DNA of 37,778 bases from Deltaproteobacteria bacterium (GTDB taxonomy: Bacteria; Desulfobacterota; DSM-4660; Desulfatiglandales; HGW-15): NCBI GenBank assembly GCA_016931115.1, contig JAFGFM010000055.1, forward strand, positions 1 to 37,778, given 5' to 3'. Under the pieces are notes generated by a model. It saw only the letters and a program-made list of their open reading frames with translations. It searched no databases and had not been told where the DNA came from. Made by a program: the position numbers and the translations under genes. Shown in pieces: positions 28,904 through 33,590 of this stretch (position 1 is its first letter; each line of letters opens with the position of its first letter).

Positions 28904-29668
28904 ATGAAGATAGGTATTACCACAGAGGGACCTGATCTAAATGCTATGGTGGAAAGCCGCTTCGGCATTTCAAAATATCTGCTTATCTGGGATTCTGAAA
29001 CCCGATCTCTTGAGGCGGTCAGGAATGAAGAAGACATAAGCGGCGGACAGCATGGAATCCAGATGGTCATACTTGCGATCAGTAAAAAGGTGGAGATTGT
29101 TATTACCGGTTATCTCAGCCCCAATGCAGAAAAATATCTGACTCAAAATGGAATCAGGGTCCTGTCAGGTTTCAGGGGGACTGCTTTAACAGCCATTGAG
29201 GCAGCGCTTGCTGATGATGTGTCCCGGCAGGTGTTAAAAAAAGATGGCATGGATCAAAAAGCAAAAATAGAGATTGTCCCAGCCCTTAGACAATCCCTTA
29301 GACAATTCTGGGGATTGGCGCCTGTCATGGTCTGCCTTAATCTATTTATCCACCCCGGCAGCATAGTCAAATTCGTGGGCGAAAAATCAGGGCTTCGCGG
29401 CGGTGCCCTGCTTGCAGCAGCCGCAGGAGTAGTATCAATGGGGCCGATCTATGCATGGTACCCCTTTCTTAAAGAGGTCCGGTCAAAGGGGGCAGGGTAC
29501 GAACCAATCGCTGTCTTTCTTAACAGCCGAACGGTCAAGCCGGTGCTTATGCCTGTGATGATTTCATATTTTGGATGGGTCTTTACGCTGCTGCTCACTA
29601 TTTTTACCATACTTGGCGCATTTACTATGGGCCATATAATGGGATATATTTTGAAAAACCGGAATTAA
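28904..29668 (+). CDS. NifX/NifB-like cofactor-binding domain fused to a permease domain
   Basis: A 254-aa protein with two parts. Residues 1-110 match the dinitrogenase iron-molybdenum cofactor binding (NifX/NifB C-terminal) domain: KIGITTEGPDLNAMVESRFG, SISGGQHGIQM-like SGGQHGIQMVILAI, VEIVITGYLSPNAEKYL, NGIRVLSGFRGTA. Residues about 135-250 hold three or four hydrophobic helices with GGALLAAAAGVVSMGPIYAW, SKGAGYEPIAVFLNSR and a terminal FGWVFTLLLTIFTILGAFTM, resembling the small DUF318/ArsP-type permeases. I infer binding of a metal-sulfur or Mo/W species coupled to transport, but this is not demonstrated. No strong ribosome binding site is seen (GGAAC). It is 99 bp upstream of the selenoprotein gene, same strand. 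Confidence 0.75.
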   Translation: MKIGITTEGPDLNAMVESRFGISKYLLIWDSETRSLEAVRNEEDISGGQHGIQMVILAISKKVEIVITGYLSPNAEKYLTQNGIRVLSGFRGTALTAIEAALADDVSRQVLKKDGMDQKAKIEIVPALRQSLRQFWGLAPVMVCLNLFIHPGSIVKFVGEKSGLRGGALLAAAAGVVSMGPIYAWYPFLKEVRSKGAGYEPIAVFLNSRTVKPVLMPVMISYFGWVFTLLLTIFTILGAFTMGHIMGYILKNRN

Positions 29669-29732: not shown

Positions 29733-29767
29733 AATAAAATATCAGCTTTTCCAAACAGGAGGTAAAA

Positions 29768-31495
29768 ATGAAAATAAGAGGTCTTATATTGAATCACATC
29801 TTGATCGCACTTATCCTGTCCTGCATTCTCATGATGCCGAACATCTCTGCTGCCGAATCTTCCAGTGACAAACTGATCACTGTAATGAACCCTGCAGTCA
29901 GAGAGATGCTGGCGCCACGTGTAGATCTGCCGTCAAGGCTTACTTCCCTTGAGGGTAAAACCATATACCTTGTAGATATGAACTATGAAGGCATAGACGG
30001 CACTCCTGTAATGGGTGAGATACAGGCGTGGTTTAAAGAGAACATGCCGGGTGTAAAAACAATCCTCAGGATCAAGAAAGGCAATTACGTTGCGGATGAT
30101 CCTGCCTTATGGAAAGAGATTTCCGATATAAAAGCAGATGGAGTAATCATGGGAGTGGCAGGTTGATGGGGTTGTATATCGGCCGTGAGCCGTTTTAATG
30201 GCGCATTTGAAAAACAGTATGGCATCCCCACGGTATCCCTTGCCAATGAAAACGTTGTAGAATTTGGTATCGGCGATCATGCAAAATACACAACAGGCAT
30301 GCCCTTGCGTTTTGTAGGTATGCCCTATCCCTTTACAGGCTTAAGTGAAGATAGACTGAAAAATTATCTCAAGGTTGGAAAAGACAATGTCACCGGCAAG
30401 CCAATAATGACCGCAATCGTGGAAGCCCTGACAACCCCGCTTACAAAGGCAGAGACCCACCCGGAAGCGCCGACTGAACCCAGATTTTTAAAACCTGATA
30501 CCGAAGAAAACCTTCAGCGGCTTTTTAAAGACAAGGGGTGGACAGACTATAACCCGGTCATTCTTCCCACCGAAGAAAGAGTATTGAGAATGCTTGCTGG
30601 GACAAGCCATGACCCCAATGAGATCGTCAAGGAGGCATCCGGGACCTTTGGAACAAGACGGCCTTTTACAGTTGAAAAGGTTGCCATTATTGCTGTAATG
30701 GCAGGGGCAAAGCCCGAATATCTGCCGGTTATTCTTGCCTTGTCCAGCCAGGTCCCCTATATGGATTCCACCACCTCAAGCTCCCGCATGGTACTTATAA
30801 ACGGGCCAATACGCGAGGAGATAGGGGTTAATTCAGGTATAGGAGCGCTTGGCCCAAATGCAGAGGCTAACTCTATAATAGGACGCTCAATGGTCCTGAT
30901 GCACAAGACAATCCAGGGCTACAAAGAGGGCAAAAGCGGTTTTTCTTCCCTCAGTAATCCCCTGCTGTACAATAACATCACCATAGGAGAAAACGAGGAA
31001 AATCTTCCCGAAGGGTGGAAGCCATTCCATGTGCAGATGGGGTTCAAGCCTGAAGAGAGCACGCTCACTGTATTCTTTGGATGGAACTTTGTTAACTGTT
31101 CAGGTTCGGTTGTTGAGCATTACGCACCCCAGCTCTTGATGAGGGATTTTACACAGGTGCTGGCCGCAACAGGCGCCGCAACGCTTATTATGGACCCCTC
31201 TGTGGCTGACCTTTTAAGGGACACACAGGGGTTTAAGACAAAGGAGGCCTTTGCCGAATGGATGTCTAAAAATTCCGAGATACCCGCAGGGATGTACTGG
31301 GCAAACTCCATTGTTTCAGGAATGAAAGGCCCTGATGATCAAAGCTCAAAAAAGGCATCAAACGATACCATGATCAAACACCTGAGTAACCCTAAAATGA
31401 TTAATACAGTTGTTGTAGGAGGAGAAACAGCCAGCGTCTGGTTCATTGCAGACTATATGCCTGGCCGGCCAGTGTCCATTGATGCATGGAGGTAA
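29768..31495 (+). CDS. Exported UGSC-like selenoprotein (in-frame TGA read as selenocysteine)
   Basis: A 575-aa protein if the TGA at 30164-30166 is read as selenocysteine (Sec133). Both halves are in the same frame, and conserved-looking coding sequence continues directly across the TGA: MGVAG-Sec-WGC-ISAVSRF, giving a redox Sec-x-x-Cys pair (Sec133, Cys136) like CxxC oxidoreductases. The motif position and QYGIPTVSL after it fit the UGSC family of (seleno)proteins. Residues 1-29 form a signal peptide (KIRGLILNHILIALIL, cleavage near NISAA). The second part (about 230-575) contains SSSRMVLINGPIREEIGVNS, GIGALGPNAEANSIIGRS and FHVQMGFKPEESTLTVFFGW. AGGAGG precedes ATG 29768. Its stop is 4 bp before the AOR gene. 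A simple nonsense mutation is the alternative. Confidence 0.85.
30164..30192 (+). promoter_or_regulatory. Candidate bacterial SECIS element at the UGA
   Basis: Directly after the TGA, CGGC (30180-30183) and GCCG (30189-30192) form a G/C stem with a CGUGA loop that contains G-U, about 13 bases beyond the stop-like codon. Bacterial SECIS hairpins recognised by SelB sit just 3' of the UGA with G/U in the apical loop. The stem is short, so folding should be tested. Confidence 0.5.
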
Positions 31496-31499
31496 TTAA

Positions 31500-33590
31500 A
31501 TGAACAGGGAAATGAAGGGCGGTTACACAGGGAAGATCCTCAGGGTGAACCTGACGAATAAATCAACCGGCACTATCCCCACTGAAAAGTATGAGGAGTT
31601 TGGTGGTGGCCACGGCATGGGCTCTGCCATATTCTTTGACCTGGTGGGTGATCAACTCCCTTTTGAGGCATTTGATCCCAAAAACCTGATCATTATCATG
31701 GGCCACCCATTTGCAGGCACCTTTATGCCGGGCTCAGGCAGAAGCGAGGTGCAGGGGCTTGCACCCATGCTCTACCCTGTTGAGTGGTTCGGCCACAGCA
31801 GCTTTGGGGGCAGGTTTACAAGTCAGCTCAAGTTTGCAGGTTGGGACGGCATTGTAGTTGAAGGGGCAGCAGATAAACCTGTATGGATAAATATTGTTAA
31901 TGACAAGGTCACCATCGAAAGCGCTGATGGTATATGGGGCATGGACACATGGGATACACAGGAGGAGATATCAAGGCGTGTAAACCCCTCTCTCAGGTTT
32001 GGTGAATGGGCAGAGTATAATGATAGCTATTCCACCCAGATACCTGCTGTTGTCTGCTGTGGGCTAGCAGGCGAAAATAAAAGCCGCATGGCAGCTCTCC
32101 TCCACGGCCCCGGATCACAGGCTGCCCTTGGCGGTTATGGAGGCGTATTCGGGTCTAAAAATCTAAAGGCCATAAGCGCAATAGGCACAGGGAGCGCACC
32201 TGTTGCTGACCCCAACGCCTTTATGGAGACACGCCTCTGGTACAACCAGTTTCAGTTTAATGTGGATAACCCCAGAAGAAAGGAGATGATGGGCGGGTTC
32301 TATTTCTGGATCAATGGCTCCCCTGCCGGTGCGAGTGTAACCAATAACCCCTATTTTATGCCTGATAACTCCCCTATTGTTCCAGCACGCGCAGCCGCAT
32401 GCGCATCTTGCCCAAGGGGTTGCCGCCAGAGGCTTGCGAGCGGGGACAATAATGAATCAGTATGTGCCGGCGCTGCCTCTGTATTCCTTGATAATGCAAC
32501 ACGCAAGATGAACCGCCAGGGTAATGACATGATGCAGAAATATGGCTTGAGCCACTGGCATTTCATGGCTACGACCCAGTATGTAAAGAGTCTCCATGCG
32601 GCTGGAATCCTGGGAAAAGGGAAGAGGATAGAGTGTGATCTTCCACTGGAAAAATCCGGGACATTAGGCTTTATGGATATGTTTATGAGGCAGATAGCCA
32701 CAGGCGATGGCATAGGTAAAGAGCTCTCACAGGGTCTAGCCAGGGCAGCAAAAAGCTGGGGCACCTATGATGAAGACTTTAACAATGGAAAACTCCAGCT
32801 CGCCTACTGGGGCACATCCATGCACTATGACCCAAGGGTAGAGGCAGAATGGGGTTATGGCTCACTCATGGGTGAAAGAGACCTCATGCTGCACGGCATG
32901 GCAAATTATCCCCTGCACTGGATGCCTGAGGCATTCCATATGGAGGGAAAAGAACCATACCTTTCAGCAGAGGAGGCTGTAAAATTCGCCTCCGATGCAA
33001 TGGTTCCATATGAAGGCGATCCCTTTATGCTTGACTACAGTGACGGACCTACAGGCATCTACTCTGAGCACAAGGTAAAGCAGGTGGCCTGGGTAAAACA
33101 TTATGAAAAATTCTGGCTCGGCTCAAACGGCTTCTGCGGATGGATGTGGCCCATGTGCTTTACCAATAACTCTGCTGATAACAGGGGTGCAACACCAGAG
33201 GCAGAGCCAAGGTTCTTTAATGCGGTAACAGGCAGGAACATCACCTTTGCGGACGGCATGGAGCTTGGGCACAAGATATTTACACTGGACAGGGCCATAT
33301 GGACATTGCAGGGAAGGCACAGAAACATGGAGGTGTTCCCTGATTATCTTCATGAACAGGGCTCTCCCGGAGCGCTCCTACCCATGTATGATGACAAGAC
33401 CAAAAAGTGGGCGTACGCGGATGGCAAAGGCAGGACACTTGATCGCAACAGGTTTGAAAATTGGAAGACAAAGTTCTATGAGTTTGAGGGATATAATAAG
33501 GAATCCGGCTGGCCGACAGGAAAGGCACTTAATGGTATGGGTTTAAAAAGGGTGGAGGATGTGATGAAGAGTAAAGGGAGGCTGGGTTAG
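31500..33590 (+). CDS. Aldehyde:ferredoxin oxidoreductase family protein (W/Mo-pterin)
   Basis: A 696-aa enzyme of the tungsten- or molybdenum-pterin AOR family. N-terminal domain: GGYTGKILRVNLTN, GGGHGMGSAIFFDL, HSSFGGRFTSQLKFAGWDGI. The [4Fe-4S] cysteines are visible: Cys301, Cys304 and Cys308 in CASCPRGC and Cys546 in GSNGFCGWMWP. This family oxidises aldehydes or other substrates with ferredoxin-type acceptors; other members reduce carboxylates or aromatic acids. It has no signal peptide and is expected in the cytosol, although its neighbour is exported. ATG 31500 is preceded by GGAGG that lies in the last codons of the selenoprotein gene, so the two are tightly coupled. The substrate cannot be told from sequence. 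Confidence 0.9.
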   Translation: MNREMKGGYTGKILRVNLTNKSTGTIPTEKYEEFGGGHGMGSAIFFDLVGDQLPFEAFDPKNLIIIMGHPFAGTFMPGSGRSEVQGLAPMLYPVEWFGHSSFGGRFTSQLKFAGWDGIVVEGAADKPVWINIVNDKVTIESADGIWGMDTWDTQEEISRRVNPSLRFGEWAEYNDSYSTQIPAVVCCGLAGENKSRMAALLHGPGSQAALGGYGGVFGSKNLKAISAIGTGSAPVADPNAFMETRLWYNQFQFNVDNPRRKEMMGGFYFWINGSPAGASVTNNPYFMPDNSPIVPARAAACASCPRGCRQRLASGDNNESVCAGAASVFLDNATRKMNRQGNDMMQKYGLSHWHFMATTQYVKSLHAAGILGKGKRIECDLPLEKSGTLGFMDMFMRQIATGDGIGKELSQGLARAAKSWGTYDEDFNNGKLQLAYWGTSMHYDPRVEAEWGYGSLMGERDLMLHGMANYPLHWMPEAFHMEGKEPYLSAEEAVKFASDAMVPYEGDPFMLDYSDGPTGIYSEHKVKQVAWVKHYEKFWLGSNGFCGWMWPMCFTNNSADNRGATPEAEPRFFNAVTGRNITFADGMELGHKIFTLDRAIWTLQGRHRNMEVFPDYLHEQGSPGALLPMYDDKTKKWAYADGKGRTLDRNRFENWKTKFYEFEGYNKESGWPTGKALNGMGLKRVEDVMKSKGRLG

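Follow-up and report, generated by a model that had tools for sequence, protein, structure and literature searches.

What does the in-frame TGA at position 30164 of a 37,778-nucleotide (nt) stretch of Deltaproteobacteria DNA encode (GenBank assembly GCA_016931115.1, contig JAFGFM010000055.1; the whole stretch is called the window here), and does the product of the gene that it interrupts work with the AOR-family tungsten/molybdenum (W/Mo) oxidoreductase encoded directly downstream? A preliminary description of this DNA had proposed an exported selenoprotein of the UGSC family acting together with the AOR protein. We conclude with very high confidence, from comparison of homologous genes, that the TGA is almost certainly decoded as selenocysteine (Sec). 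Gene neighborhoods across genomes indicate that coupling between UGSC and AOR genes is real but optional.

Reading of the TGA at 30164

The features that bear on this reading, with the basis for each, are as follows.

29757..29762, + strand: Shine-Dalgarno sequence AGGAGG of the selenoprotein gene (sequence)
29768..31495, + strand: predicted UGSC-family selenoprotein gene, 575 amino acids (aa) with TGA read as Sec (frame under that reading, Pfam PF24696, TGA at the matching codon of orthologues and paralogues)
30164..30166, + strand: TGA, almost certainly Sec133 (homologous alignments)
30173-30175, + strand: Cys136, the putative partner of Sec133 (motif U133-W-G-C136)
30180..30192, + strand, loop 30184-30188: CGGC[CGTGA]GCCG, candidate apical hairpin of a bacterial Sec insertion sequence (bSECIS) (covariation, Sec-versus-Cys control)

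A single frame of 575 codons runs from the ATG at 29768 to the TAA at 31493-31495, and its sole interruption is the TGA at 30164-30166 (codon 133). At the base composition of the window, the chance of 442 open codons following that TGA is ∼1e-11. A mechanical gene caller returned a 132-aa open reading frame (ORF) and a separate 436-aa ORF in place of this gene. The preliminary description had foreseen this split, and its coordinates for the frame contained no error; the UxxC motif that it had placed across the TGA was likewise confirmed as U133-W-G-C136. In 120 homologous alignments, the site of codon 133 was occupied by TGA in 102 and by TGC in 13, with no TAA and no TAG; the remaining five were poor alignments or divergent members. 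The second Cys, three residues on, was retained in all 102 TGA and all 13 TGC homologues. Genes for Sec incorporation were detected elsewhere in the genome, each above its cut-off: SelA (628 bits; contig C97), SelB (367 bits; C183), and a 94-nt tRNA-Sec (selC; 73.6 bits; C204). Sec or Cys at residue 133 and, in the genome, SelA, SelB, and tRNA-Sec, which are among the checks that the preliminary description had named, were both found.

The bSECIS consensus is a hairpin shortly after the UGA whose apical loop has a G within its first bases. The window hairpin fits this consensus, with a loop that begins 20 nt after the first base of the TGA. Judged alone, however, it was not significant (codon-shuffle P of 0.22); folding of the 54-mer gave a minimum free energy z score of −1.2 and a best structure other than the hairpin, and an Rfam search of the locus yielded no credible match. 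Significance came only from comparison across homologues, and comparative analysis replaced single-sequence folding. Across homologues, the hairpin lay at a fixed distance after the TGA in three loop classes (CGTGA at +20, GGTC/AGTT at +20, and GTN at +19). Stems of the first class differed by compensatory changes: CGGC/GCCG in the window and GCGGC/GCCGC, TCGGAGC/GCTCCGA, ATCGAC/GTCGAT, and TCGCGGC/GCCGCGA in relatives. The hairpin beat 90% of codon shuffles in 59% of 95 Sec genes versus one of the eight Cys genes scored, four of which had no qualifying hairpin at all. Between the window and the orthologue in genome G001, of the same genus, the hairpin codons (+6 to +9) were identical and flanking synonymous sites differed. 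The hairpin that the preliminary description had pointed out is thus in place and covaries across homologues, although the fold of the single sequence is not significant.

Taken together, the predominance of TGA or Cys at the site without TAA or TAG, the covarying hairpin, the presence of SelA, SelB, and tRNA-Sec, and the TGA that 14 of the genome's 16 paralogues have in the same motif are the reasons for the Sec reading. On this comparative evidence, SelB and tRNA-Sec almost certainly decode the UGA as Sec, guided by the bSECIS hairpin that follows it.

Domain architecture, predicted export, and probable redox chemistry

29768..29854, + strand: predicted N-terminal signal peptide, approximately residues 1-29 (hydropathy, AxA-type site)
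29882..30364, + strand: UGSC domain, residues 39-199 (Pfam PF24696, AlphaFold model)
30491..31492, + strand: C-terminal conserved domain, approximately residues 242-575 (conservation; in other genomes a gene of its own, next to the UGSC gene)

The kinship with UGSC proteins claimed in the preliminary description was upheld by Pfam family PF24696, which the selenoprotein matched at 36.8 bits (cut-off, 25). It fell short of the NCBIfam equivalog NF041046 (UGSC_fam; 25.8 bits, cut-off 125), which the single-domain form of the family passes at 140.7 bits. To our knowledge, UGSC selenoproteins, named in surveys of 2007-2008, are still without a function.

The C-terminal domain had no relative in Pfam, NCBIfam, or PDB profile searches; its invariant polar residues are D260, R373, and E408. 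In distant genomes, the UGSC part and the C-terminal part are adjoining separate genes in either order (for example, 361 aa plus 187 aa with GDUGSC at locus L136), which indicates that two such partners have been fused in the window gene.

An AlphaFold model built from 66 sequences reached a predicted local distance difference test score of 89.6, compared with 78 for an earlier model from 15 sequences. In the model, the UGSC domain alternates strands and helices, and Sec133 stands at the start of the third helix, just before helix 134-151. Searches of PDB structures returned no confident match for either model (for the better one, best E value about 2e-3, template modeling score <0.2 of the query); the weak matches of the better model were Rossmann/flavodoxin-like, with no thioredoxin among the best. 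The model suggests that the N-terminal domain is Rossmann/flavodoxin-like rather than of the thioredoxin fold, which is the guess for UGSC proteins in the literature (PMC2398784, PMC13188914). A UGSC-containing protein is listed in PMC2398784, PMC9312934, and PMC13188914.

Export of the selenoprotein is supported by sequence features: a hydropathy maximum of 3.1 at residues 11-23 is followed by a plausible AxA cleavage site before E30, and 14 of the 16 paralogues have a hydrophobic leader, with lipoboxes in several; C14 has a Tat (twin-arginine translocation)-like leader. Leaderless homologues (from Ramlibacter, Rhizobiales, and others; mostly with Cys) adjoin thioredoxin reductase (TrxR)-like flavoproteins with a CASC motif; at L091, L094, L103, L104, and L105, the TrxR-like gene lies on the same strand, at most 110 nt away. 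These neighbors are the best hint that the UxxC pair is a thiol/selenol redox center.

The adjoining AOR-family gene

31488..31492, + strand: Shine-Dalgarno sequence GGAGG of the AOR gene, within the last codons of the selenoprotein gene (sequence)
31500..33590, + strand: AOR-family (AFOR_N/AFOR_C) oxidoreductase, 696 aa, without signal peptide (Pfam, tree, PDB relatives)

At 31500, 4 nt past the stop of the selenoprotein gene, the AOR gene begins, as first described. The 4-nt gap and the Shine-Dalgarno sequence inside the first gene amount to translational coupling, which fits joint expression of the two proteins; a promoter scan was not sufficiently above shuffles. The protein matched the Pfam AFOR_N and AFOR_C domains (4.3e-48 and 4.5e-27), and its PDB relatives are AOR and FOR. 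The presumed [4Fe-4S] ligands are C301, C304, C308, and C546, and both the CxxCxxxC motif and C546 are nearly invariant in the tree; with two domains and four Cys, the protein belongs to the AOR family.

The preliminary description had remarked that the selenoprotein has a signal peptide and the AOR protein none, which would put the pair on opposite sides of the membrane. The remark about leaders held, with one called by hydropathy on the selenoprotein and none found on the AOR. A 4Fe-4S ferredoxin with a Tat signal is encoded next to the sister AORs at C13, C22, C64, C15, C72, and C75, and likewise at the related locus L039 in Acidobacteriota. By analogy, a ferredoxin exported by the Tat route, of the kind that accompanies most sister AORs, probably resolves the puzzle. 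This answer comes from the sisters, however; no such partner lies beside the window AOR.

Gene neighborhoods of UGSC and AOR genes

The two genes are not found together in every homologous operon, a point that the preliminary description had raised. AOR genes adjoin UGSC genes in the window genome only at C90 (the window) and C64, 2 of 16 paralogues, and among seven named orthologue loci encoding the UWGC motif, one has an AOR gene within the stretch read, some of these stretches stopping at contig ends. An obligate UGSC-AOR partnership was rejected on these counts.

Where the genes do meet, their arrangement varies. The order is UGSC then AOR at C90 and G001:C34, and Tat ferredoxin, AOR, UGSC at C64 and G001:C48, each two being orthologous loci from the same genus. 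At G006:C126, the AOR and UGSC genes are convergent and 2.5 kb apart; at L039, the AOR is divergent from the UGSC gene, followed by the Tat ferredoxin; and at L178, the AOR precedes a UGSC gene of another subfamily (C58 type) by 82 nt. Locus L185 has the order UGSC, Tat ferredoxin, xanthine dehydrogenase (XDH)-type Mo subunit; Tat ferredoxin, AOR; UGSC.

To put numbers on this recurrence, 19 loci chosen by AOR similarity (≥60% identity) were scored for a UGSC gene within 3.5 kb. Seven had one. With the window left out, the count was 6 of 18 versus ∼1 expected from a rough density estimate; it is 4 when orthologous pairs are counted once. No UGSC gene lay within 3.5 kb at any of eight more distant AOR loci. 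Related AORs (66-76%) occur in all seven Acidobacteriota genomes with UWGC proteins and in none of three genomes with UHGC relatives, a difference that lineage may explain. The earlier claim that the selenoprotein and AOR act together thus gains from an association that recurs in varied orders and subfamilies, but loses from a pairing that is not constant.

Other neighbors also recur. XDH-type Mo subunits are encoded near UGSC genes at L038, L040, L042, L061, L064, L068, L160, and L185, and short-chain dehydrogenase/reductase (SDR) genes neighbor UGSC homologues at 13 loci. The repeated placement of UGSC genes beside W/Mo-type enzymes in relatives hints at an extracytoplasmic redox system, so far uncharacterized, that links selenium and tungsten. 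Pyrroloquinoline quinone (PQQ)-dehydrogenase-like genes were seen near UGSC genes mainly in Acidobacteriota (L049, L050, L052, L053, L054, and L089). At the C58 locus (L019:5806-8208), a pyruvate-formate-lyase-like glycyl radical enzyme and a protein with a Tat leader are encoded just downstream of the UGSC gene. Directly upstream of the selenoprotein gene in the window (28904-29668), part of an ArsP-like permease is joined to a domain of the NifX type (dinitrogenase FeMo-cofactor); the G001 locus, which matches in other respects, lacks this element.

Proposed mechanism and alternative explanations

Our best explanation, which we judge about as apt to be right as wrong, is a periplasmic Sec/Cys redox enzyme whose electron partner would be an exported W/Mo oxidoreductase; the relay is inferred. 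Comparison with homologues shows that Sec133 and Cys136 constitute a conserved UxxC pair at a helix start, interchangeable with CxxC in other bacteria, and that the C-terminal domain is a conserved partner fused to the UGSC domain. The pair may cycle reversibly between selenol/thiol and selenenylsulphide. The protein would act as a periplasmic oxidoreductase, in some paralogues as a lipoprotein, and the C-terminal domain would choose or convert the substrate. Cytosolic cousins probably receive electrons from the neighboring TrxR-like flavoprotein; in this operon and its relatives, electrons would probably come from or go to the AOR-family W/Mo oxidoreductase, exported with a Tat-signal ferredoxin.

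Several observations weigh against this explanation. The signal peptide is called from hydropathy alone, and no solved structure resembles the model. Fourteen of the 16 paralogues are without an AOR gene in the stretch read (some contigs are short), so the UGSC family does not need AOR. The genomes that encode UWGC proteins contain 6 to 15 AOR matches each, so co-occurrence is partly a matter of lineage. Finally, neither the window AOR nor its G001 orthologue has a Tat ferredoxin beside it, and a search of the genome for an orphan copy found none; the AOR may therefore be cytosolic. It may also be exported in trans or have lost its ferredoxin partner.

A serious competitor, to which we give a smaller but substantial share of belief, is that a real, redox-active selenoprotein has no functional tie to the AOR, and that the genes share a transcript only because both families are large and mobile in these genomes. 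The scarcity of AOR genes beside the paralogues favors this view, as do the other neighbors of most named UWGC orthologues and the sheer numbers of both families (10 to 28 UGSC genes and 6 to 15 AOR matches per genome). Independence does not, however, account well for same-strand junctions and near neighbors that recur in varied orders and with different UGSC subfamilies, nor for the excess of UGSC genes at close-AOR loci and their absence from the distant ones. It is also conceivable, though we think it improbable, that the protein is an enzyme in its own right, performing for example a reductive cleavage like glycine or proline reductase, with the AOR, XDH, PQQ, and SDR neighbors representing earlier or later steps of varied catabolic pathways. 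The variety of carbon-oxidizing neighbors (XDH-type Mo subunits at six loci, PQQ dehydrogenases at six, SDRs at 13, and the glycyl radical enzyme near C58), the many paralogues, which fit substrate diversification, and the invariant polar residues of the C-terminal domain all speak for such an enzyme; neither sequence nor structure matched GrdB or PrdB. A genuine stop at this codon, whether in a pseudogene, through a sequencing error, or in a gene that makes only a 132-aa product, is effectively refuted: the split by a default gene caller and the weakness of the hairpin in the window sequence alone speak for it, but TGA is the sole stop type conserved at the aligned codon in 102 homologues from many phyla, with Cys in 13, and a covarying hairpin, full conservation downstream of the TGA, and SelA, SelB, and tRNA-Sec accompany it.

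Expansion of the UGSC family

The window genome encodes 16 UGSC paralogues (17 matches, with C49 and C2 representing one gene cut by contig ends). Fourteen have TGA in the UxxC motif, which reads UWGC, UDSC, UDGC, UHGC, USTC, UPGC, USSC, USVC, UGSC, or UUGC; in the other two, C14 and C220, Sec and the partner Cys are both gone. These two (L022:3574-5418 and L023:1-1779) nevertheless keep the C-terminal domain, which may act without the redox pair. Relatives, including G148, G149, and G006, carry 10 to 28 UGSC genes per genome, mostly with one TGA each, and UGSC genes were absent from 14 control genomes. The window protein is nested in an Acidobacteriota clade (support of 97/89, 96/94, and 100/100), and the nearest sampled relatives of several other paralogues in this genome are also from Acidobacteriota. 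This placement suggests that UGSC genes have been exchanged between lineages; paralogy or binning error are the alternatives.

Reported bacterial selenoproteome totals are 57 to 63 genes (PMC13188914). Against these totals, 16 paralogues here and 28 in one relative are large numbers, and the UGSC family could therefore be a main use of selenium in such bacteria, hidden by standard annotation that splits its genes. One paralogue (L021:381-2189, G000:C155) has four in-frame TGA codons at residues 142, 143, 577, and 579 (UUGC plus HUVU/HUGU). It is found in three genomes (L021, L166, and L167; 76 to 79% identical), and its Acidobacteriota relative L188 also has UUGC. Behind the second TGA pair, the DNA is identical and contains the hairpin GGCTC[GGTGC]GAGCC. 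According to a review, prokaryotic selenoproteins mostly contain one Sec and a few contain two or three (PMC13188914). Another UGSC relative, L187 (G003:C68:34362-35954), is interrupted in frame by a TAG that lies outside the active site, and its motif lacks Cys; it is either a decaying gene or a case of other recoding.

As a broader and more doubtful proposal, these genes might make up a selenium system of the periplasm, unrecognized until now and heavily expanded, in which each genome encodes many exported UGSC fusions with Sec that combine a UxxC redox domain with a new catalytic domain. Some of these fusions would be served by W/Mo oxidoreductases of the AOR and XDH types exported by the Tat route, and one subfamily would contain four Sec residues (UUGC plus UxU). 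The literature searched, with most subscription journals outside its scope, contained no description of an exported, expanded UGSC fusion with W/Mo-enzyme neighbors. The selenoprotein family is already known; this form of it is the new part. The fused partner domain, the operons with AOR-family W/Mo enzymes, and the TrxR-like neighbors of cytosolic forms provide handles on UGSC function.

Comparison with known systems

Class V tungsten oxidoreductases are periplasmic and are defined by an arrangement with a Tat-signal 4Fe-4S small subunit (PMC13328260). Clade 41 of this class (Escherichia coli YdhV/YdhY; PMC13328260) resembles the system described here in its AOR-family large subunit and in the Tat 4Fe-4S small subunit of the sister AORs. 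The window AOR differs in having no adjacent small subunit, Tat-signal or transmembrane. Its identity to YdhV is 25 to 27% (25% over 741 columns), and the two group weakly in a tree in which other clades are unsampled; given this distant likeness, we do not file the window AOR as Class V.

Thioredoxin reductase/thioredoxin systems share the UxxC at a helix start, and leaderless UGSC homologues lie beside TrxR-like flavoproteins with CASC. They differ from the modeled UGSC domain, which alternates strand and helix in a Rossmann/flavodoxin-like manner and has no thioredoxin among its best structure matches.

A UGSC/Unknown_1 fusion from the Global Ocean Sampling survey (2008; PMC2398784), compared here by description only, likewise joins UGSC to a conserved domain of unknown function; the accessible portion of that paper does not mention an AOR link, export, or paralogue expansion. 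With the UGSC family as a whole (PF24696, NF041046), the window protein shares the UxxC after a strand, a domain above the Pfam cut-off, and the alternation of Sec and Cys. It is set apart from that family by a UWGC rather than UGSC motif, by its predicted export, by its second domain, and by a score below the NF041046 cut-off.

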